Source: a virus. Taken from it: a stretch of 64,000 bases of DNA. The notes beneath the pieces were generated by a model. The model was not told where the DNA came from. It made no database searches and saw only the letters and a program-made list of their open reading frames with translations. The stretch's first letter is position 1, and each line of letters starts with the position of its first letter. The stretch is from IMG/VR virus record IMGVR_UViG_3300034356_001231, positions 23,809-87,808 of that record. One strand, given 5' to 3'. Shown in pieces: positions 23,082-34,572 of the stretch. Made by a program: the position numbers and the translations under genes.

Positions 23082-24019
23082 TACACAAACTCACAATCAA
23101 TCATTACCTGAACCAGGAATGCCATGAAATTAATTTCTGCATTGGCAGCAAATGCATTTTGATATTGGTATCTAGCAATAAGTAATACTAGAACAGGAGC
23201 CGAGTTCTTAGTACAAATGTCAGATGACAATTCATAGAACTGATTGTAAAGATAGTTAACATCAGTGTCTAAATTATTCTTAACCCATTTACGGATCTCT
23301 GTATAGTTTTGCTGCTTCAGTAGAGCAATAAGATCCTTGATTGAAGCCTCTGTCATATTCGCTAGAATACCAGAATCAATCTTACCCGTTGCTGAATAAC
23401 GCTGAAGCTCATTAAGAACACGGCGCCAATCTGGAAAATGTTTATTGATTACTTCAGCAACAACAGCCTTATCGTATTCAATCTTTTCGTTTTCCAGAAT
23501 AAAAGTAACACGTTTGAAGAACTGCGTAGCAAGTTTGGCCATGGCCTTTTTGCTAATTTTAAAATCAATTACTGAACATCTTGAATGTAACGGCTCAATG
23601 ATGCGGTTTTTGAAATTACAGGTGAGAATGAAGCCGCAATTCCTCGAGAATTCCTCCATAAAATTTCGAAGTGCGGGTTGAGTAGAATTGGCATTAAGAT
23701 AGTCCGCTTCATCAAGGATGACATATTTCCTTCCACCCGAAAGTGACACTGATGAGGCAAAGTTGAGAATTTCATTTCTAAGCGTGTCGATATTTCCATT
23801 CATAGATCCATTAATGACGATATAATCACAACCAAGTTGTTCAAGCATAGCACGTGCTACGGTCGTCTTTCCGACACCTGCTGTTCCTGCTAGAATTAGA
23901 TTAGGGATATTCTTTTGTTCAACAAACTGTTGAAATGTTTGTTTAAGATCGCAAGGAAGAATAGTTTCTTCAATAGTTTTTGGGCGATACTTTTCAGTCC
24001 AGATAAAGTGTTCATCCAT
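23081..24019 (-). CDS. 44: Clamp loader large subunit gp44 (AAA+ ATPase)
   Basis: About 312 residues. The ATG at 24019 is preferred because GGAG stands before it; an in-frame ATG at 24034 lacks a site. The N-terminus WTEKYRPKTIEE is standard for clamp loaders. AGTAGVGKTTVA is Walker A, VILDEADYL is Walker B, and ILTCNFKNRIIEPLHSRC contains sensor 1 and the arginine region. It loads the sliding clamp with gp62. The + strand homing endonuclease begins 86 bases upstream. Confidence 0.93.
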   Translation of the reverse strand: MDEHFIWTEKYRPKTIEETILPCDLKQTFQQFVEQKNIPNLILAGTAGVGKTTVARAMLEQLGCDYIVINGSMNGNIDTLRNEILNFASSVSLSGGRKYVILDEADYLNANSTQPALRNFMEEFSRNCGFILTCNFKNRIIEPLHSRCSVIDFKISKKAMAKLATQFFKRVTFILENEKIEYDKAVVAEVINKHFPDWRRVLNELQRYSATGKIDSGILANMTEASIKDLIALLKQQNYTEIRKWVKNNLDTDVNYLYNQFYELSSDICTKNSAPVLVLLIARYQYQNAFAANAEINFMAFLVQVMIDCEFV

Positions 24020-24104: not shown

Positions 24105-24623
24105 ATGATTATATATAAAATCACCAACCTTATCAATGGTAAATTTTACGTAGGTAAGTCCACAAAAACTACCGAAGAAAGATTTAAGCGTCATTATTAC
24201 AATCACAAATCTGGTAACACCTATCTCTATAAGTCGATGAGAAAACATGGCTTCGATAATTTTGTTATTGAAACAATAGAAGAAACCACATATATCGACG
24301 AAAGAGAAAAGTTCTGGATTTCAGAACTGGCGCCACATTACAATATGACAAAAGGAGGAGATGGCGGTGATACTTCTAGCTCTCCAAATTTTATCGAAGG
24401 CATAAAGAAAAGACCGCCACCACCTCCCACTTATGGTATGCTCGGAAAGAAACAATCTGATAAGTTTTTTGAAGCTATCAGAAAATCCAATAGTCGCCCA
24501 GTTATGTGCGAAGGAAAAAGATATGCTTCTATCAACGAAGCTCAAGAAGCATATCCTGGTATTTCTATTCGCAAAAGATTAGACAATCCAAAGTATTCCG
24601 AGTTTTATAGATTAGAAAGTTGA
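24105..24623 (+). CDS. GIY-YIG homing endonuclease
   Basis: A 172-residue protein on the opposite strand to all neighbours. The N-terminus IYKITNLINGKFYVGKS is a complete GIY-YIG motif. It is followed by RFKRHYYNHKSG, the conserved Arg region, KHGFDNFVIETIEE, with the catalytic Glu region, and LAPHYNMTKGGDGG. The C-terminal part resembles NUMOD-type DNA-binding pieces (SDKFFEAIRKSNSRPV, YASINEAQEAY). It probably cuts phage DNA lacking the insert and spreads itself. It sits between gp44 and gp45, and its end overlaps the 3' end of gp45. Confidence 0.88.
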   Translation: MIIYKITNLINGKFYVGKSTKTTEERFKRHYYNHKSGNTYLYKSMRKHGFDNFVIETIEETTYIDEREKFWISELAPHYNMTKGGDGGDTSSSPNFIEGIKKRPPPPPTYGMLGKKQSDKFFEAIRKSNSRPVMCEGKRYASINEAQEAYPGISIRKRLDNPKYSEFYRLES

Positions 24624-26355: not shown

Positions 26356-26699
26356 TTCCTATCCTTATAATGATCTGCATAAAGCATCATTATAACATAA
26401 TGAAGAACTTTTAGCAAGTCATCTTTATTGCTGCCATGCTTTTTACCATAGCGCCAAAGATATTTGATAGCAGTGTTTCGGAAGGTAGGCATAGAATCAC
26501 CAAGAGCAAGCCACACATCGAAACATTCTATATTCTCTTCTTCAGTCATATAATGCTGCCCATATGTCTTATCTATATAGGCGTGGAAATCAGCAATAAT
26601 CTGATCTTCCATATATTTGTATTTAGGCGCAACCTTTCCAGCAACATCCAATTTATAACTAACACCTGATGGTATTTCACTATATAACCTGCTCATCAT
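26352..26699 (-). CDS. DUF3310-like protein
   Basis: A 115-residue protein. The segment RNTAIKYLWRYGKKHGSNKDDLLKVLHYVIMML is the signature of the DUF3310 family, common in phage nucleotide or replication modules, with a helical arrangement of acidic and basic residues. Function is not established. It overlaps the P-loop kinase gene by four bases, so it is co-transcribed with the hypermodification cluster. Confidence 0.65.
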   Translation of the reverse strand: MMSRLYSEIPSGVSYKLDVAGKVAPKYKYMEDQIIADFHAYIDKTYGQHYMTEEENIECFDVWLALGDSMPTFRNTAIKYLWRYGKKHGSNKDDLLKVLHYVIMMLYADHYKDRK

Positions 26700-27232
26700 G
26701 CCTCCAAATATTTCATAATGTAATCCACAATAATCTTCTGATCTTCTTTGTTATTGTTTTTAAATTTAACAGTGTTAAACATAAGAGTCATATTCGTTAG
26801 AATATTTGCAATCTTAGTTTCTCTTCCCTGTAACCAAGTTTCGTTTTGGTTACTTCCACGCTCCTTATAACGTTCTTGCCGAACAGCTTTATCGGTTTCT
26901 AGATAAATTATATCAGTGTTATAATTGTTCACACAATGTTCTAAGAACGTTGATGTGAAAAGACGGTCGCCCTCAAAAAGAACAACCGAATCTTTATGCA
27001 AACTTGCTAAGAATTTAACTGCTTCTGGCTGAACTGCCATAGACATACGATCTGTTCCAGAGAAAGTTTCACCTTCGTCATACTTACCCAAAATATAATT
27101 ACAATCATATTGAAGATACGGAACAAGTTTTACTTCATCATAAACTTTTATCCAATTAAATTTCGAAATAATTTCTTTCATTAAAGTAGATTTGCCAGCA
27201 CCTGGCTCGCCACCAATCGCAAATACAAGCAT
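26696..27232 (-). CDS. P-loop kinase, candidate hydroxymethyluracil DNA kinase
   Basis: A 178-residue protein with Walker A GGEPGAGKST (Lys14). VVLFEGDRLFTSTF is Walker-B-like, and a lid-like RYKERGSNQNETWLQGRETK contains several Arg residues. The size and shape fit nucleotide/DNA kinases used in thymine hypermodification, where the enzyme phosphorylates 5-hydroxymethyluracil in DNA. That role is inferred from the adjacent aGPT-Pplase and TET/JBP genes; alone it would be just a small-molecule kinase. Its start overlaps the aGPT-Pplase stop. Confidence 0.65.
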   Translation of the reverse strand: MLVFAIGGEPGAGKSTLMKEIISKFNWIKVYDEVKLVPYLQYDCNYILGKYDEGETFSGTDRMSMAVQPEAVKFLASLHKDSVVLFEGDRLFTSTFLEHCVNNYNTDIIYLETDKAVRQERYKERGSNQNETWLQGRETKIANILTNMTLMFNTVKFKNNNKEDQKIIVDYIMKYLEA

Positions 27233-28230
27233 TATGTAAACCTTTCAAGTCCGACCTTTTCAGGCTCAACAAACAAACCTGTGCAGTCTAGAATACCATT
27301 CTCACTATACAAAGCCATTTTACTATTGTTTATGTGATTAGTCAATAGTTTATTATTTAGAGTTTCATTACGAGCGTCCCACATTGGTTGCCAATCAATA
27401 CCATCCCATCCATCTTTTTCACACTGAGTAATTTCTTCAGCCTGACGATCTAGATAATAACCAAGATATCGACCATGTTTTACTCTGAATAACTTTTTAA
27501 AAGAACAGAGACATGTTTCCATATCAAAATAATCAGTGTCAGGAAAGTCTTTCTTAACTTCTTCTAGAATTAGATACGCCTGTGCTTCCAGATAAGCAAG
27601 TTGACTGACATCTAATTTTTTATCAATCCATTCAGGCTTACCAAGAGCGAAGCATAAACCATTGCGGTGAGATCTTGAGCCAGAATAATCTTCAAGCATT
27701 AGACTGCTCGGTTCAATTGGTAAACCGCAACATTGCTTTAATGTTTGCATGTAGAACCAAGTTGAATATCTACCAAACTTATGAAAGTTTCCCTTGACCT
27801 CGTCCCATAGTAAACTGAAACTTAATTTAGGGCTACCCGGAGCAAGGAAATCTTTAAACGCTTCTGCTTGCGATCTATCACCAACCCAGTTTTTATAAGA
27901 TTCAAACTGAGCAGGTAGATGGCCTTTGTTCCATTTAGTATCTGTTTGATACCGTAGACGTTTATAATTCTTACTGTTCCAATCTTTCAAACGATCAAGA
28001 CCAACAAGTTCCATATCAGGAAACTCGTTCCAGATAACCCACGTTGTCGGAAAATGATACGTTGTACCGTAGATCCAAGCAATCCAGAGTTTCTGTTCTC
28101 TGTTATGTTCGAACCTACGGAACAAGTAATTGGTCATAAAGATAGCGGGGTCGCAATCCTTAATGGAAAGCGACCACCGATACCAGTTTATAAAATCTTG
28201 CTTACGCTGCTTTACGATTTGCTGGTTCAC
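27232..28230 (-). CDS. aGPT-Pplase family protein (amino acid:DNA transferase type)
   Basis: A 332-residue protein with the pattern FINWYRWSLSIKDCDPA, EQKLWIAWIYGTTYH, WVIWNEFPD, RLRYQTDTKWNKGH and GSRSHRNGLCFALG. I recognise this as the alpha-glutamyl/putrescinyl-thymine pyrophosphorylase family, members of which attach amino acids to activated hydroxymethyluracil in phage DNA. Conserved His, Arg and Asp residues are abundant but catalytic ones are not mapped here. It overlaps the ParB-fusion gene by 29 bases and the kinase by 1, so the three are surely co-expressed. Confidence 0.7.
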   Translation of the reverse strand: MNQQIVKQRKQDFINWYRWSLSIKDCDPAIFMTNYLFRRFEHNREQKLWIAWIYGTTYHFPTTWVIWNEFPDMELVGLDRLKDWNSKNYKRLRYQTDTKWNKGHLPAQFESYKNWVGDRSQAEAFKDFLAPGSPKLSFSLLWDEVKGNFHKFGRYSTWFYMQTLKQCCGLPIEPSSLMLEDYSGSRSHRNGLCFALGKPEWIDKKLDVSQLAYLEAQAYLILEEVKKDFPDTDYFDMETCLCSFKKLFRVKHGRYLGYYLDRQAEEITQCEKDGWDGIDWQPMWDARNETLNNKLLTNHINNSKMALYSENGILDCTGLFVEPEKVGLERFT

Positions 28231-29542
28231 TTATTACCTTATTTGTCCTGGTGTCCCAGAAGCAAGGAAGAAATTCCAACTCGATCCATTCAAGTTTAGC
28301 AATGGCCAAACATTCACGGACTTCTTGCTCAAGAACATCTCTCTCAAGATATTCTTCAACATTCTTAAAGTGAATGAATATTTTGCCTTTCGGATTATTT
28401 CTTGCCGAGGGACGATTCTTTGTCTTTTGGCGCAAACTATTTACCACACCACCAATACCCGAGTGAATGACAGTGCTTATAGACTGACTGATACAACCAG
28501 CATAAGGATTTTCTGCAAGGTAAGAATTTACCTTCTTCTTCAGATCCTTATCTACCCAGTTATAGAAATTATACTTGCTGTTAATTTCGTTAGTGAAATA
28601 ACGATCTTTAGCAGCGCTGATCAAACTCTTTAGAGACTTCTCAGAGAATTCTCCAAGATAAAGATCAAATACAATTTCTTCCATTTCATCTGAATCAAAA
28701 GGAATTCCATCGACATAAAGAGCTTCAATCTTGCGCTTCACATCTTCCTTAGAATTACCTTCCTTGACAACTGGCTCGTGATTCATAAGAACCCCGAAAT
28801 GATCCATAATAGAAGGATCATCAAGGAATTCGTCAGAATTAATATAAATTACGGGCACAGTTGCCCATTTAGCTTCAATTGCTGCACTGAGCGTATGATT
28901 ACCATCAAGAATCTTTTTCTTGCCGTCACGGAAAACAACAACCACAATAGGATTGATATGCTGATTGGCACGCTCTGGATCGTTCATACGATCTACAAGT
29001 TTATTTACATGATGATTATGACGTAGCTTAAAACGAATTTGAATTCGTTCGAAATTCGCCAACTCTCCAACGTAAACATTATGGACTTCATAATGTTTCT
29101 TGATTTTGTTTTCTTTTACCTTATTTGCAATCGATCGAGCAAGACGAATATGCTCCTTATACGTAGATCTAGCTTTTTCGATAATGAAATCTGTAGAAAT
29201 ACATCGGCTAACGATCTCTCGCATTTTATCTGTGACGTGCGAAAGACTACATCCAGCACCACCACCATTTGTCTTATTATACATATCTGGGTTATTACGA
29301 GCATCTAATACATCAAGCATATAATGCTCGAGCGAGATACACTGTTCTAATGTGCCTTCAAAAAATTCTACTCGACGAAGAAACCCTTTGTTCCAGGCAT
29401 CATTAAACGCTGGATCAGTAGAGCTCGAAGTGTAATAGTCTGAAACATTCTTATCAGAAAGTTTATGATAACCTACATAGACAATCTTAGTAGTTTCACG
29501 ATTATACCAAAGATAACAAATAGCCTGTTTTGCAGTTTTCAT
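28202..29542 (-). CDS. GIY-YIG / ParB-Srx-like fusion protein
   Basis: A 446-residue protein. Residues 1-100 show a GIY-YIG-like fold (ICYLWYNRE, IVYVGYHKLSDK, a later YNKTNGGGAG). Around residues 190-240, INPIVVVVFRDGKKKILDGNHTLSA followed by WATVPVIYIN is a ParB/sulfiredoxin-like domain with the conserved DGNHT loop. The C-terminal 200 residues are helical and unassigned. ParB-type folds bind nucleotide triphosphates or act as kinases or nucleases; the role here is unknown. It has its own upstream promoter and lies inside the hypermodification cluster. Confidence 0.7.
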   Translation of the reverse strand: MKTAKQAICYLWYNRETTKIVYVGYHKLSDKNVSDYYTSSSTDPAFNDAWNKGFLRRVEFFEGTLEQCISLEHYMLDVLDARNNPDMYNKTNGGGAGCSLSHVTDKMREIVSRCISTDFIIEKARSTYKEHIRLARSIANKVKENKIKKHYEVHNVYVGELANFERIQIRFKLRHNHHVNKLVDRMNDPERANQHINPIVVVVFRDGKKKILDGNHTLSAAIEAKWATVPVIYINSDEFLDDPSIMDHFGVLMNHEPVVKEGNSKEDVKRKIEALYVDGIPFDSDEMEEIVFDLYLGEFSEKSLKSLISAAKDRYFTNEINSKYNFYNWVDKDLKKKVNSYLAENPYAGCISQSISTVIHSGIGGVVNSLRQKTKNRPSARNNPKGKIFIHFKNVEEYLERDVLEQEVRECLAIAKLEWIELEFLPCFWDTRTNKVISEPANRKAA

Positions 29543-29604
29543 AGGTCACTCCTTTTTGGACCGTTTCAAAATATTGGGCTTCCTTTACATCACCCAATAA
29601 ACAT

Positions 29605-29633
29605 ATACTACCACTATTCTGCGAAAATGTCAA
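29605..29633 (-). promoter_or_regulatory. Sigma70-type promoter (TTGACA-17-TAGTAT)
   Basis: Minus strand: TTGACA (29628-29633), 17 bp, TAGTAT (29605-29610). The gap to the fusion gene start (29542) holds an AAAGGAGTGACC ribosome-binding site. It gives the lower half of the hypermodification cluster its own transcription. Confidence 0.65.
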
Positions 29634-30186
29634 GTCCTTTATATTCGACGAAGAGCTCTACGCAGCCTCCCTTTCCTTTTTTCGTTGCAGCCTTATAGAT
29701 TATATCGTCGAGAGAGTAATCAATCTTCTCGAATTCCGAAGAATTAATCTTAAACATAGCCAATAGACATCCACTTTTCTGTTTACCTACGAATTGTATG
29801 CCTAGTTTTTTGTAGAACGGTATAGCTGGAATTTCCGAAGAAACTCTGAAATAATGTGCGCTCGAATAGAAAGCGTAATACAAAGAATGATTGCATAGCT
29901 TTCTAGCAACTCCTTTGTTCCTATGCGCATAAAAAGTATGAAGCAATTGAAGGTTAGCCGTATAAGGTTTACGTTTCGAAATAGTTGTGAGAATGGCTCC
30001 GGCAAGGTCATCGCCTTCCCAGAGCCCAACAACTTCATTCCATTTGTCTAGCATGTCGCATTTAGCAACAAATGTTTTGGCAAACTTATCTTCTTTACGA
30101 TCGCTAATGTTTGCTATAAATTGTTCTTTTGTAACTGTTTTAAACTGCAATGAACTCTCGGGATTTCTTTCCTCGCTCTTTTCCAT
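29614..30186 (-). CDS. GNAT-family acetyltransferase
   Basis: About 190 residues. The ATG at 30186 has GGGAG upstream. LLHTFYAHRNKGVARKLCNHSLYYAFYSSAHYFRVSSEIPAIPFYKKLGIQFVG carries the GNAT acetyl-CoA loop (R/KxGVA) and the following FYKKLGF strand. It overlaps the amidoligase gene by 47 bases. In a DNA-modification cluster it could acylate the amine of a hypermodified thymine (inference); alternatives are acetylation of a host protein or an antibiotic. Confidence 0.65.
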   Translation of the reverse strand: MEKSEERNPESSLQFKTVTKEQFIANISDRKEDKFAKTFVAKCDMLDKWNEVVGLWEGDDLAGAILTTISKRKPYTANLQLLHTFYAHRNKGVARKLCNHSLYYAFYSSAHYFRVSSEIPAIPFYKKLGIQFVGKQKSGCLLAMFKINSSEFEKIDYSLDDIIYKAATKKGKGGCVELFVEYKGLDIFAE

Positions 30187-31012
30187 ATTTTGTTTTCTCC
30201 CATGACGTATAAATCTCGTGATCATATTTTAGTTCTGGAAATTTATAATCGCCTTCAAGAAGAATTTGTAGAACATCTGGGCCATTATTGAGCGCAGCGT
30301 CTATAAACGCTTCAACAAATCTAAATGAATCTTCTAACTCTCTACGGTCAAAAGAATTACGGAAACAACGGAACTCAATAGTTCCTGTGTGTTTCATACA
30401 ATATGTATTAATTGCATAACGGAAAGGACGACCCATAGAAACGCCATCTTTACCTGCGCAATGTAACTTAATAAAGTGTTCAAAGTCGGTTGTAAGATTA
30501 ATAATGTTGTTGCACATATAATCAGGCATCAACCTACCACAATCTAACTTCAAATAAGTCTTTGCTGTTTTTGTAGAAGCCATATCTGGGTGCAATCTAA
30601 ATGCATGGATACGATCAACTACTACATGTTGATTTTCTTTGATGTATGCAACCAACCGTTTGAGCGCATCAACATCTTCTTTTAGACCTGGAACATATAC
30701 ATGAACATGATTATGAGAAATACAATTACTAGTAGGATTGTTACCGTGCGATTTATAAAAATCAAGAATCTCAAAAATTCTGTCAACCTGTTCCTTCCAA
30801 GTTTTCGTTGGTCTTACATTAATTTCGCCGCCAAATGGTGGTTCAATACCAAGAGGATCACAAGCGATACCACGATAAGGTGGATTGAGATTCACTACGT
30901 CAGTTTCTGAAAATTCCCATTTACCTAAATGTTCTGGAAGTGGGAGACGACGATCAACATCCCCCACTTCCATTTCAAACCCCCATGTGAAGTCTTTTTT
31001 GTTATATGTCAT
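30140..31012 (-). CDS. Amidoligase-type COOH-NH2 ligase
   Basis: A 290-residue protein. FTWGFEMEVGD at the start is the E-x-E metal motif. GGEINVRPT, NHVHVYVPG and GTIEFRCFRNS complete the pattern of the amidoligase family (glutamine-synthetase-like fold), which forms amide or peptide bonds. It directly follows a class II glutamine amidotransferase, a natural source of ammonia or partner. In this cluster the likely substrate is the carboxylate of an amino-acid-modified base (inference). Confidence 0.7.
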   Translation of the reverse strand: MTYNKKDFTWGFEMEVGDVDRRLPLPEHLGKWEFSETDVVNLNPPYRGIACDPLGIEPPFGGEINVRPTKTWKEQVDRIFEILDFYKSHGNNPTSNCISHNHVHVYVPGLKEDVDALKRLVAYIKENQHVVVDRIHAFRLHPDMASTKTAKTYLKLDCGRLMPDYMCNNIINLTTDFEHFIKLHCAGKDGVSMGRPFRYAINTYCMKHTGTIEFRCFRNSFDRRELEDSFRFVEAFIDAALNNGPDVLQILLEGDYKFPELKYDHEIYTSWEKTKYGKERGKKSREFIAV

Positions 31013-31692
31013 TGCAAATCCTCAATAGCAGGAAACTCATACTTATTATAGCTTACAATTTTGAAATTTTCAACAATAAAATGTTCATACATAGAAGCAG
31101 TAACTTGAACGTCAAGACCGCTTCTTTTCAGAATATCTCTGGTAGAAGCAAATATAATACCGTTCTCATTGTAAGAATAATGAAGTGGTCGAGATTCATT
31201 CCGGAATGCGGTAAGAACTTTATCCTTGTCAATAGTGCAAACAGACATGCTTGCAGGATGAAACTTATGTAAAGGAACTTCACCAGTTTCTAAACAACGT
31301 AAAATTAATTCGCTATCGTTCTTTGTAATTACATCATATCCAAAAGTTTGTTTCCATTGTTCTGGATCTTCTTGAGAAATGACTCCATTGTGGACAATAG
31401 AAAGTTCTTCAGTAGCCATTGGTTGATTGTAAGCAAGATCGCTCGTTGAGTAACGAACATGGCCAATGCAATAAAGATTGCCATCTTCGTTTACCCAACT
31501 GGGAATATCCTGATTGTTGATAAAGGTACAGGCGTTCACAGGTTCTTTGATAGTATGAACCTTACTGTTCTTTACATATGATACTCCTGTAGCGTGCTTG
31601 CCACGAATCATTGATTGAATAAAAAGCCGACGAACAAGTTCGAATTCGTGCTCGCTCGGTTTCTTTATAGCTATTCCTAATACTCCACACAT
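31009..31692 (-). CDS. Class II glutamine amidotransferase domain protein
   Basis: A 227-residue protein beginning MCGVLGI, with the nucleophile Cys2 exposed after Met removal. RGKHATGVSYV, GHVRYST and SIVHNGVI are the glutaminase signatures (GATase_6 type). It hydrolyses glutamine to glutamate and ammonia for a partner enzyme, here probably the adjacent amidoligase, with which it overlaps by four bases. No synthase domain is fused. It also overlaps the stop of the dioxygenase gene upstream (TAATG). Confidence 0.8.
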   Translation of the reverse strand: MCGVLGIAIKKPSEHEFELVRRLFIQSMIRGKHATGVSYVKNSKVHTIKEPVNACTFINNQDIPSWVNEDGNLYCIGHVRYSTSDLAYNQPMATEELSIVHNGVISQEDPEQWKQTFGYDVITKNDSELILRCLETGEVPLHKFHPASMSVCTIDKDKVLTAFRNESRPLHYSYNENGIIFASTRDILKRSGLDVQVTASMYEHFIVENFKIVSYNKYEFPAIEDLQ

Positions 31693-33062
31693 TAGAAAAA
31701 TGATTCCAATGAAGCCACTTCGTCTTTGCCGTAAGGATCTTTCATTCCATGAGCGTGAAGATAATCATACCATTCTTGCTCTTCCCACATTCCAGGAGAA
31801 ACACCATTCCACAATGGACGATGTAATGGATGATCTTTATTCATACGACGTTCTTCCACAAATTGCTTACGCAGCAATTCATAGTCATATGATTTCAACT
31901 CAAGCATTTTCTCACGGAAATAGCAGACTACAGATATGCGCTCACAAGAAGGATCATCAGGCTTATTAAGCACGATAGGAGTATTACCATGGATAATCTC
32001 ATGGTTGTTAACGAGTAACAAATCGCCAGGACGCACATTAACAGCGATACGATACTCAGGAAATATAAGATAACCACCAGTATATTCTCCAGAACCAAGA
32101 ACAAGTAGATTAGATAAACCAGAATCAAGATCACCAGCATCTCGATGACATGCTGTCCGAAAAGTCTTGTTCACAGTCAATGTAGTAAACACTGTTTCAG
32201 GAACAAGAAACCTTGGATCAAGTTTATCTGCTGCAGCTTTCTGATTGCCCCAACGCCAAGGAAGTAATTCTCTAAAACCTTTATTCAGTGTTTGGAGAAA
32301 TGGATACGCCTTTGAAAACAATTCTGGATGGTTTTCAGTATATGCAGTAGCACGACCATACGGAATACGTGGGTATCGATCGTACCAACCAGCAACGCCC
32401 GAAAACACTGACTTTGCATAGTTAGTAGTTGATGCCCACTTTTCAGCAACCTTTCTCGCCTCTGCACGCACTTCTTCGTTTGGTTTATTAGATAAACCAT
32501 CAACCCATTTATCAAACCAACCATGATATTCCGGATACACTTTCTGGACTTCTGAACGTAACCATACAGTACCACGAGTTTCATCTGCAGGTTTAAATTT
32601 AGGATCTGCATACTTAGCGCGAATAGATGCAACTGAATTGTCATCAATTACCTTTGCACCATCATCCATAAGAAAGTCTAAAATCTCCTGTTGATAAGGA
32701 GTAACCCAATCACGACCACCACGACCTTCACATGCTAGCATGTCACCACGAGGACCAGCAGCAAGACCACGATTTTGAGATTCAGTAGCTGCTTGCCTTA
32801 GACCTTCATATGCCTGATCGCATTCTTCTTTAGTGAAGTAGTTCTTACGAAACTTAAATGCAATACGTAATTCATCGTTGCCTTTATCGCAATCTTCGCA
32901 TTCTTTAGTCCCACAATCTGCTTTGGTAAGCGGATCACATAGCGGTGGCATATAACAATCAGTATCTTCTTCAATCAAAATATCATAATGACTCTCGTCA
33001 ACGAAAGTGCCAAGAAGATGTTCACAATCATGTTTTTGACGAGCAACAATACGTCTTACCAT
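31692..33062 (-). CDS. TET/JBP-family 2-oxoglutarate/Fe(II) dioxygenase
   Basis: A 456-residue protein; the ATG at 33062 follows GGAG, and a GTG three bases upstream is the alternative start. The core TLTVNKTFRTACHRDAGD carries the HxD iron ligands (His306, Asp308). LVNNHEIIHGN gives the distal His and RISVVCYF the 2-oxoglutarate Arg (about 375). LSNLLVLGSGEYTGGYL matches JBP/TET proteins. A CxxxxCxxC cluster near residues 50-60 may bind zinc. JBP/TET enzymes oxidise the methyl group of thymine or 5-methylcytosine; here oxidation of thymine to 5-hydroxymethyluracil is the likely first modification step. Confidence 0.75.
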   Translation of the reverse strand: MVRRIVARQKHDCEHLLGTFVDESHYDILIEEDTDCYMPPLCDPLTKADCGTKECEDCDKGNDELRIAFKFRKNYFTKEECDQAYEGLRQAATESQNRGLAAGPRGDMLACEGRGGRDWVTPYQQEILDFLMDDGAKVIDDNSVASIRAKYADPKFKPADETRGTVWLRSEVQKVYPEYHGWFDKWVDGLSNKPNEEVRAEARKVAEKWASTTNYAKSVFSGVAGWYDRYPRIPYGRATAYTENHPELFSKAYPFLQTLNKGFRELLPWRWGNQKAAADKLDPRFLVPETVFTTLTVNKTFRTACHRDAGDLDSGLSNLLVLGSGEYTGGYLIFPEYRIAVNVRPGDLLLVNNHEIIHGNTPIVLNKPDDPSCERISVVCYFREKMLELKSYDYELLRKQFVEERRMNKDHPLHRPLWNGVSPGMWEEQEWYDYLHAHGMKDPYGKDEVASLESFF

Positions 33063-33442
33063 CACTTATCTCCGTATAGAACACTTTTAATATCTGGAGC
33101 AGTCCAGCCTTCGGGTTTCAAAATCTTACCATCATCACGACGAACTACTTTACCGTCTACTAGTTTTTCCATGTTAGATCTATGGACTTCGTTGAAGACT
33201 CTGTCCAATGGAATCCCATAAGATGCAGCAGTGCCACAAACAATGTAAATAATATCAGCAAGCTCTTTGGCGACATTCTCTAGATCATCCTTATCTTCAC
33301 CATCAAAATATTCTTCTACTTCTTCTTTTAAAAGTTTACGACGCAATACACGTTCATTCTCATCAGGAAATTCAGGCACTTCGCTGACATTCTGACCGAC
33401 TGCTGTTTGAAACTTTTTTACTTCTTGAAACATATTAGACAT
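33062..33442 (-). CDS. MazG-like nucleotide pyrophosphohydrolase
   Basis: A 126-residue protein with the all-alpha NTP-pyrophosphatase motif: LLKEEVEEYFDGED followed by VAKELADIIYIVCGTAASYG, giving the ExxE-x(n)-ExxD metal site. Such enzymes hydrolyse (d)NTPs or ppGpp-type nucleotides. In a phage that modifies thymine, removing canonical or inhibitory nucleotides, or lowering the stringent alarm, are both plausible. It overlaps the dioxygenase start (TGATG). Confidence 0.8.
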   Translation of the reverse strand: MSNMFQEVKKFQTAVGQNVSEVPEFPDENERVLRRKLLKEEVEEYFDGEDKDDLENVAKELADIIYIVCGTAASYGIPLDRVFNEVHRSNMEKLVDGKVVRRDDGKILKPEGWTAPDIKSVLYGDK

Positions 33443-33998: not shown

Positions 33999-34108
33999 TT
34001 TTTTCTCATATACCAATAAACAAATATTGCGAACACAATTAGTATAAACCATTGTTCATAATATTCAAGCATTAAATTCAGTTTATAGAAATTAAAAAAA
34101 TGATTCAT
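33995..34108 (-). CDS. 37-residue single-span membrane protein
   Basis: Between the deformylase and the 33435 gene a 37-codon frame starts at ATG 34108 (overlapping the deformylase stop) and ends at TGA 33995 (overlapping the next ATG). The product has a polar head, then a hydrophobic helix (WFILIVFAIFVYWYM) and a basic end RKK, so it should lie in the inner membrane. ATGA-type overlaps on both sides argue strongly that it is translated. Function is unknown. Confidence 0.7.
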   Translation of the reverse strand: MNHFFNFYKLNLMLEYYEQWFILIVFAIFVYWYMRKK

Positions 34109-34572
34109 TGTTTCCACTTTCTCATTGCTTGGTCTCGATGAAACTTGTTAGCTCTATCATAAAAACGAATGCCTTGCAAGTGATCATATTCGTGTTGAAA
34201 TACTCTAGCAGACATACCTATAAACTGTTTTGTCAAACTATCTCCATTAGGAGTATTGAATCGAACACGAACTACTGTTGGTCTTTTAATTTTAACTACT
34301 AATCCAGGATAAGATAAACACCCTTCCTCGAGAACTACGTCGTCTTTAGATTGACTAACTATCTTAGGATTATAACAAACAAAATTTTCCGGAGCTCCAC
34401 GCATAGCGAAAATACGATAAGGCACTCCTACTTGGTTTGCTGCCACTCCAAGACCATTGTTCTCATACATAAATTTGATGAGACTCTGCGCGAAATCAAT
34501 CGGATCGAAGGGAGGATCTTTAAAATCGAATTCTTCACATTGTTCTAAAAGATATCTATCATCTAGTTTCAT
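34105..34572 (-). CDS. def: Peptide deformylase
   Basis: A 155-residue protein with all three deformylase motifs: GLGVAANQ (residues 40-47), EGCLS (83-87, Cys85 as metal ligand) and QHEYDHLQG (His127, Glu128, His131). It removes the formyl group from nascent proteins, probably securing processing of abundant phage proteins after host shut-off. The start is supported by GAGG seven bases upstream. Phage deformylases often lack the C-terminal tail; this one is short too. Confidence 0.92.
   Translation of the reverse strand: MKLDDRYLLEQCEEFDFKDPPFDPIDFAQSLIKFMYENNGLGVAANQVGVPYRIFAMRGAPENFVCYNPKIVSQSKDDVVLEEGCLSYPGLVVKIKRPTVVRVRFNTPNGDSLTKQFIGMSARVFQHEYDHLQGIRFYDRANKFHRDQAMRKWKQ

Follow-up and report, generated by a model that had tools for sequence, protein, structure and literature searches.

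The DNA analysed here (the window) is a stretch of 64,000 nucleotides (nt), positions 23,809 to 87,808 of the IMG/VR virus record IMGVR_UViG_3300034356_001231. One of its genes encodes a 446-residue protein predicted to join an N-terminal GIY-YIG nuclease domain to a domain of the ParB/sulfiredoxin (Srx) fold and a helix-turn-helix (HTH)-like block. The gene lies within an operon of candidate DNA hypermodification genes, with the order TET/JBP, GATase, amidoligase-like, GNAT, slot, ADDT, kinase, and in the window it occupies the slot. The sequence-only reading of this DNA had described the fusion as lying directly before the aGPT-PPlase of a hypermodification cluster; this neighbour is the ADDT gene below, whose start overlaps the 3' end of the fusion by 29 nt. 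The coordinates given there are correct, the cited motifs are found in the protein, and the strand, which was left unstated, is minus. The operon comprises:

31692..33065, minus: TET/JBP dioxygenase (PF12851, 4.6e-23)
31009..31692, minus: class II glutamine amidotransferase, GATase (PF13522, 3.6e-12)
30140..31012, minus: amidoligase-like protein (PF12224 at only 0.053, below the cutoff)
29614..30225, minus: GNAT acetyltransferase, upstream neighbour of the fusion (PF13673, 2.3e-7)
29549..29554, minus: Shine-Dalgarno-like AAGGAG, shortly 5' of the fusion ATG, as read from the sequence
28202..29542, minus: GIY-YIG/ParB-Srx fusion gene, ATG start, 446 amino acids (aa)
27232..28230, minus: aGPT-PPlase-like amino acid:DNA transferase, ADDT, downstream neighbour of the fusion (PF18724, 3.5e-24)
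26696..27232, minus: P-loop nucleotide kinase, a candidate base kinase (PF18751, 9.8e-13)

The gene was found again in five other IMG/VR viral contigs, with 0, 2, 2, 2 and 3 nt differences. Given this recurrence and the AAGGAG box before the ATG, an assembly artefact is ruled out. Within the gene the following parts are distinguished, those marked AF2 being read from an AlphaFold2 (AF2) model:

29255..29542, minus: GIY-YIG nuclease domain, residues 1-96; Y10, Y22, Y37, E72 and N89 conserved
29099..29254, minus: helical linker, residues 97-148 (AF2)
28757..29098, minus: ParB/sulfiredoxin fold, residues 149-262; Q168xR170, DGNHT 213-217, F249GxxxN254
28571..28756, minus: HTH-like block, residues 263-324; KorB and Noc matches extend to 313-323, Mos1 match at 262-319
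28205..28570, minus: C-terminal alpha/beta region, residues 325-446 (AF2), without a trusted relative

Both folds suggested by the sequence-only reading, which had named structure prediction as a check, are seen in the model. It was built with 48 related sequences and has a mean predicted local distance difference test score (pLDDT) of 88.6; a single-sequence model (pLDDT 37.4) was discarded. No GIY-YIG match was obtained in Pfam or PHROG scans of the full-length protein. Residues 1-126 alone match phrog_314, "homing endonuclease", at 2.1e-8. With a hidden Markov model (HMM) built from 11 Seg-like proteins of phages, the fusion scores 36.0 bits and the best of 2000 shuffled sequences 9.4. When the three members found with the fusion as query are omitted, the score is 21.6 against 9.0 bits, and when a fourth member is omitted too, 15.2 against 8.8 bits. 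In the model, residues 5-96 align to the catalytic domain of I-TevI (1mk0) over 83 aa at 2.9 A with Z 6.9, and a Z under 8 taken alone is middling.

Conservation was counted in 58 unique full-length fusions, down to about 20% identity, one row lacking the N terminus; 13 of the 71 unique ParB- or GIY-bearing open reading frames (ORFs), being shorter than 400 aa, were excluded. The tyrosines Y10 and Y37 are present in 57/57, E72 in 58/58 and N89 in 56/58. The YIG tyrosine Y22, present in the window protein, is kept in 46/57, with Asn or Val in the remaining 11. There is no conserved arginine at the place of the catalytic Arg of I-TevI, which we take to be R27; position 26 is H, K or R in 53/57. 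Thus by predicted fold and by its GIY tyrosine, YIG tyrosine, catalytic Glu and Asn, the protein is a GIY-YIG superfamily member.

The ParB part matches phrog_5778 at 3.1e-8 and further ParB-like PHROGs at 3e-6 and 1e-5. A search of PDB sequences with the single protein gave no credible match; a profile search gave Noc (4.5e-4) and SbnI (1.3e-3). The best Foldseek match of the model in PDB is ParB.CDP (2.9e-4). Structural alignment gives Z 10.6 to ParB.CDP (6sdk) for residues 150-257 (96 aa, 2.4 A), Z 10.9 to KorB for residues 149-323 (4.6 A) and Z 9.0 to sulfiredoxin (6ky4) for residues 151-252. The Z for the HTH-like block alone is middling, and for residues 326-446 the matches to AAA+ proteins (ClpX, HslU, Z about 5) were judged to be due to chance. 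Q168 (58/58), R170 (54/58), G214 (58/58) and N254 (58/58) are conserved. The position of the DGxxR arginine, 217, is Thr in the window protein, and in the family Thr in 38/58 and Arg in 20/58. A canonical ParB partition protein (ParABS) was rejected, the score with TIGR00180 parB_part being 15.2 bits at a cutoff of 58.45. PADLOC gave no match for the protein.

The profile and fold matches include SbnI and free serine kinase, and the gene sits in a pathway operon. One might therefore think of the ParB/Srx domain as a phosphotransferase, similar to SerK, SbnI or sulfiredoxin, that makes the modified base. However, the operon already encodes a kinase, many operons do without the fusion, and a GIY-YIG domain has no place in such a step, so that a biosynthetic role is very improbable.

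IMG/VR was scanned with the ParB part and then with the whole fusion, the fusion query yielding 39 loci. A GNAT gene lies directly upstream of the fusion in all of them (34, and 5 from the window's own virus). ADDT follows in 30 of the 34, the pieces of the other four ending there, and also in the five others. In every one of the 46 loci scored for this, the end of the fusion gene runs past the called start of ADDT. Among cultured phages the family was not seen: tblastn of the fusion against 50,697 phage records gave nothing at 1e-5 and, up to E 10, only matches at 0.3 or above. A very long Vibrio phage protein, a weak lead from this search, was dropped. The divergent fusion L187 as query also found no cultured-phage relative. 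In bacteria and archaea, a single scan of limited sensitivity over 84,980 genomes gave 114 pattern matches and no relative. Thus the GIY-YIG-ParB fusion is an old, conserved and widespread family of uncultured phages, fixed to one operon slot. The pairing that had looked unusual is real; it is not singular, as it recurs in the 58 unique proteins.

A full-text literature search found no description of this fusion or of its slot, and an earlier mention may exist outside that search. The papers named here and below are cited from excerpts. Already in print are ParB genes near modification enzymes (PMC12783734, PMC11955845) and bacterial ParB-HNH fusions (PMC12704722). In the Rhodococcus phage Tonitrus a ParB-like gene lies with TET-like, aGPT-Pplase2 and 5-hydroxymethyluracil (5-hmU) kinase genes in a thymidine-hypermodification cluster; it is given as a parB-like nuclease domain, and no GIY-YIG fusion is mentioned in the excerpts (PMC11955845).

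The slot itself is optional and changes its content. Its context was examined with the amidoligase-like protein as query (best 80 of 205 relatives) and with ADDT (best 80 of 99); both sets under-sample divergent operons and include near-identical contigs. In the first, five loci lack the GNAT-ADDT pair, and the 75 scorable ones contain GIY-ParB (38), HNH-like-ParB (9), the GIY part only (2), other short ORFs (8), a 425-nt gap without any ORF of 100 aa (2) or nothing (16). In the second, 21 lack the pair, and the 59 scorable ones contain GIY-ParB (31), HNH-like-ParB (11), an ORF-less gap (2) or nothing (15). Since the slot is optional and swaps its content, the fusion is dispensable for keeping the modification genes. 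The empty sites of L173 and L122 align with the filled L168 and L060 on both sides to about the slot, with 88-93% identity in the flanks.

A DHI...N...N..KG pattern is invariant in the HNH-like proteins, and one of them matches phrog_1035, "endonuclease VII", at 0.0033; the HNH assignment rests on these two observations, and L074 and L159 were placed in this class by HMM only. No Pfam match was found for these proteins, nor any match of the family profile in PDB. Their ParB-like region is related to that of the fusion (hhalign 87%, 3.9e-6). Thus in the slot the GIY-YIG domain is replaced by an HNH-like one while the ParB-like part stays. For the HNH segment, the nearest cultured relatives are located within a split rnlA gene and between tail genes. 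An ADDT tree with 83 rows, made by a quick method (47 GIY-ParB, 21 empty, 9 HNH-like-ParB, 6 other), requires at least 22 changes of slot state, the mean after shuffling being 32.6. Thus the states are clustered, yet often switched.

Other slot contents were also noted. Proteins of 192-197 aa (L130 7423-8016, L133 2843-3421, L136, L137, L100 7424-8014, L103) have no function-naming match among the families scanned. A 184-aa protein (L120 7421-7975, L121) looks like T5orf172/GIY-YIG (PF10544, 17.0 bits at a cutoff of 20). The ORF-less 425-nt gap (L101 1678-2103, L213) is possibly a remnant. In L154-L157, L163 and L201 ADDT is present, and the GNAT-ADDT pair is absent from the piece read.

Two other genes of the window may be mentioned. 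A free-standing GIY-YIG gene (24105-24623, plus strand; PF01541, 1.8e-9), on the opposite strand amid minus-strand genes, has a setting typical of a homing endonuclease and is separate from the fusion. A peptide deformylase gene (34105-34572, minus strand; PF01327, 2.1e-37) lies upstream of the operon.

Versions of the fusion are exchanged between otherwise near-identical operons. The 47 GIY-ParB rows of the tree gave 43 for comparison, 35 with all seven genes and 32 after removal of near-duplicates. The pairs quoted here are the most extreme among the pairs listed. In L026/L080 the identities of amidoligase, GNAT, ADDT, GATase and kinase are 1.00, 0.99, 0.98, 1.00 and 1.00, and that of the fusion is 0.23. 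The same values are 1.00, 0.96, 0.99, 0.98, 0.98 and 0.22 in L047/L104, and 0.99, 0.89, 0.98, 0.99, 1.00 and 0.29 in L042/L140. In other near-identical pairs the fusions are the same or closer to each other (L104/L105, L067/L068 and L166/L198, 1.00 each). At the DNA level, the 99.6% identity of L026 and L080 ends 11 nt beyond the GNAT stop, and the two can be aligned again 20 nt into ADDT. L047 and L104 diverge almost exactly at the start and stop of the slot gene, with flanks of 98.7% and 99.3% identity over 300 nt on each side; other pairs are less alike there.

One possibility is that the fusion is a free-standing homing endonuclease. The ParB/HTH part would be its DNA-targeting module, it would cut relatives having no gene or another version and spread by recombination, and the operon would be a safe landing site. 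The GIY-YIG module is indeed of the phage Seg-like homing type, and the HNH segment has the cultured relatives described above. On the ADDT tree, empty sites are intermixed with GIY-ParB and HNH-like-ParB sites, and occupied/empty polymorphism at one site is what homing genes show. L026 and L080 diverge and realign within about 20 nt of the slot gene ends, as do L047 and L104. However, all 39 fusion loci are in this one slot and none outside it, though site-faithful homing genes exist. The near-identical flanks of different versions in L047/L104 mean that a carrier would itself contain any target located in the flank. Methyltransferases neighbour the stand-alone relatives of the ParB part, and an NTP (nucleoside triphosphate)-binding ParB/Srx part is, to our knowledge, not a homing module. 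Phage nuclease genes have been described at genetic-exchange boundaries (PMC10448857), but on balance simple homing seems less likely than the explanation favoured below, of which it is the main rival. A domesticated homing gene that serves as a weapon would reconcile it with that explanation, as ICP1 Odn illustrates (PMC8263062, PMC10448857).

Among the 32 operons, fusion distances track those of amidoligase (rho 0.65) and GNAT (0.63; p 0.0005 each), whereas there is no or hardly any tracking of ADDT (0.03), GATase (0.04), kinase (0.00) and TET (0.13). ADDT also adjoins the fusion, yet does not co-vary with it. TET, GATase, ADDT and kinase co-vary among themselves (0.53-0.78) and form a second block. 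Therefore, within the operon, the history of the segment amidoligase-GNAT-slot is a separate one. If the amidoligase and GNAT fix the final decoration of the base, as we infer, the nuclease would go with the decoration in a sensor-like manner; the alternative is one-sided linkage.

The co-variation with GNAT and amidoligase would also suit a DndB-like regulator or quality-control protein of the operon. In such a protein the ParB part would respond to NTP or modified DNA, repressing the enzymes or targeting them, and DNA binding or nicking by the GIY-YIG domain would give access. For the ParB-fold protein DndB, ATP-dependent negative regulation of its own modification operon has been claimed (PMC10853773), and I-TevI acts as a transcriptional repressor as well (PMC10448857). 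However, the catalytic Glu is retained in 58 of 58 fusions, the slot can be empty without loss of the neighbours, and the nuclease type is swapped while the operon stays. A regulatory role is therefore improbable.

Stand-alone relatives of the ParB part (phrog_5778) occur in cyanophages. In ACG-2014b the order is N6-adenine methyltransferase (PF02086, 1.1e-58), PDDEXK_11 nuclease (2.7e-11), ParB gene. S-RIM12 is arranged likewise (PDDEXK_11 2.1e-10, the methylase by annotation), and in S-RIM2 a methyltransferase (2.1e-31) comes after the ParB gene. Five stand-alone ParB loci from IMG/VR, L030-L034, were examined. A phrog_799 DNA methyltransferase gene stands next to those of L030, L032 and L033; in L033 the methyltransferase ORF also contains an EcoRI-like segment (PF02963, 3.9e-7). 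L031 has PF02086 two genes on, and L034 only a weak methyltransferase match upstream (Eco57I, 0.035). Thus, in both the cyanophage and the IMG/VR neighbourhoods, the ParB module recurs with a modifier and sometimes with a nuclease. The occurrence of ParB near DNA-modifying enzymes has been remarked on, the function being given as unknown (PMC12783734). As a separate observation, phage gene groups resembling restriction-modification systems (methyltransferase, nuclease or small protein, stand-alone ParB) lie at L033 2-1922, L010 81-2400, L030 755-2894 and L032 455-2452.

The best explanation seems to be that the fusion is an NTP-gated nuclease, the restriction-like arm of a phage hypermodification system that both modifies and attacks; we put its probability at about one half. 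TET/JBP, kinase, ADDT, GATase, amidoligase-like protein and GNAT would decorate the phage's own bases. The ParB/HTH part would load on DNA, with the NTP state and the status of the bases acting as a gate. The GIY-YIG domain would then nick or cut undecorated DNA, that is the host chromosome, plasmids or co-infecting phages, and the decorated phage DNA would be spared. Adaptation of hosts or rival phages to each version would drive the exchange of slot genes. This agrees with the presence of a GIY-YIG domain with its core residues, a ParB/Srx fold and an HTH-like block inside a hypermodification operon, in a swappable slot. The sequence-only reading had proposed cutting of unmodified DNA, sensing of modified bases or a nucleotide-dependent switch. 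All three fit, genome context and co-variation being what ties the protein to modification.

Several observations weigh against this explanation. With Thr in place of Arg at position 217, NTP hydrolysis may be absent, because the DGxxR arginine is required for GTP hydrolysis in SspE (PMC13251355). Fusion copies with Asn or Val at the YIG tyrosine may be inactive. Some copies are broken, by a frameshift in L060 and by truncation to GIY-only genes in L092 and L093. The slot is empty in 16/75 and 15/59 operons, so that attack is not essential. Finally, frequent swapping is also compatible with a homing gene, and the GIY-YIG and HNH-like nucleases alike resemble homing endonucleases.

We know of no ParB/Srx part in T4 endonuclease II (EndoII, DenA) or in the I-TevI/Seg homing endonucleases. 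The latter share the GIY-YIG catalytic domain, whereas the fusion is tied to one operon slot. EndoII, which initiates breakdown of unmodified host DNA, is likewise a phage-encoded GIY-YIG nuclease of a phage with modified DNA (PMC9960720). Its modification chemistry is unlike that considered here, and the likeness is one of description rather than of compared folds.

In SspE, a ParB-like GTPase licenses an HNH domain on self-marked DNA in a "recognize-hydrolyze-activate" manner (PMC13251355). SspE, GmrSD and BrxU all couple a ParB-like NTPase and a nuclease to DNA modification (PMC13251355, PMC4619093), and share with the fusion the Q..R pair, a DG motif and an F...N-like motif. The QR pair, DGQHR and FxxxN motifs described for the DGQHR domain and GmrS (PMC4619093) read QxR, DGNHT and FGxxxN in the fusion, which is close, not identical. 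However, those systems have DUF262 and a C-terminal HNH domain and serve bacterial defence, whereas the fusion is a viral gene with an N-terminal GIY-YIG domain and DGNHT for DGQQR. In the sequence-profile test, which was the only one made for DUF262, it has no PF03235 match at E up to 1. Judged by DUF262 and the DGQQR/DGQHR arginine, the fusion falls outside the SspE/GmrSD family. Thus the best reading is a mode of action like that of T4 EndoII or SspE/GmrSD, by analogy and without membership in those families.

ICP1 Odn is a phage GIY-YIG-family nuclease with a DNA-binding domain that is used as a weapon and swapped at one locus, where it alternates with CRISPR-Cas. However, its DNA-binding part is RepA_N, it targets a satellite replication origin, and the excerpts describe no modification operon (PMC8263062). 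ParB-CTPase-fold proteins joined to other domains, including HNH, bind CTP, ATP or GTP (PMC12704722); "GIY" is absent from the main text of that paper.

Hypermodified phage bases are usually seen as a passive shield against host nucleases. If the proposed explanation is true, a swappable nuclease in the modifying operon makes the decoration a mark of "self", that is, a restriction-modification system run by the virus. More tentatively, phages may in general carry restriction-hypermodification systems, in which a base-decorating operon is combined with an exchangeable cassette for an NTP-gated nuclease (GIY-YIG-ParB, HNH-ParB or others). Competition among phages or with hosts might keep divergent versions circulating in near-identical viruses, and the decoration, beyond shielding against host restriction, could confer the immunity in a system of attack. 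The near-isogenic operons, whose slots hold nucleases of 22-23% identity or HNH-like replacements or are empty, amount to a natural experiment, which makes it testable what the nuclease cuts and whether decoration protects. A ParB-like module also occurs next to methyltransferases and nucleases of phages, so that a single answer may hold for several systems.

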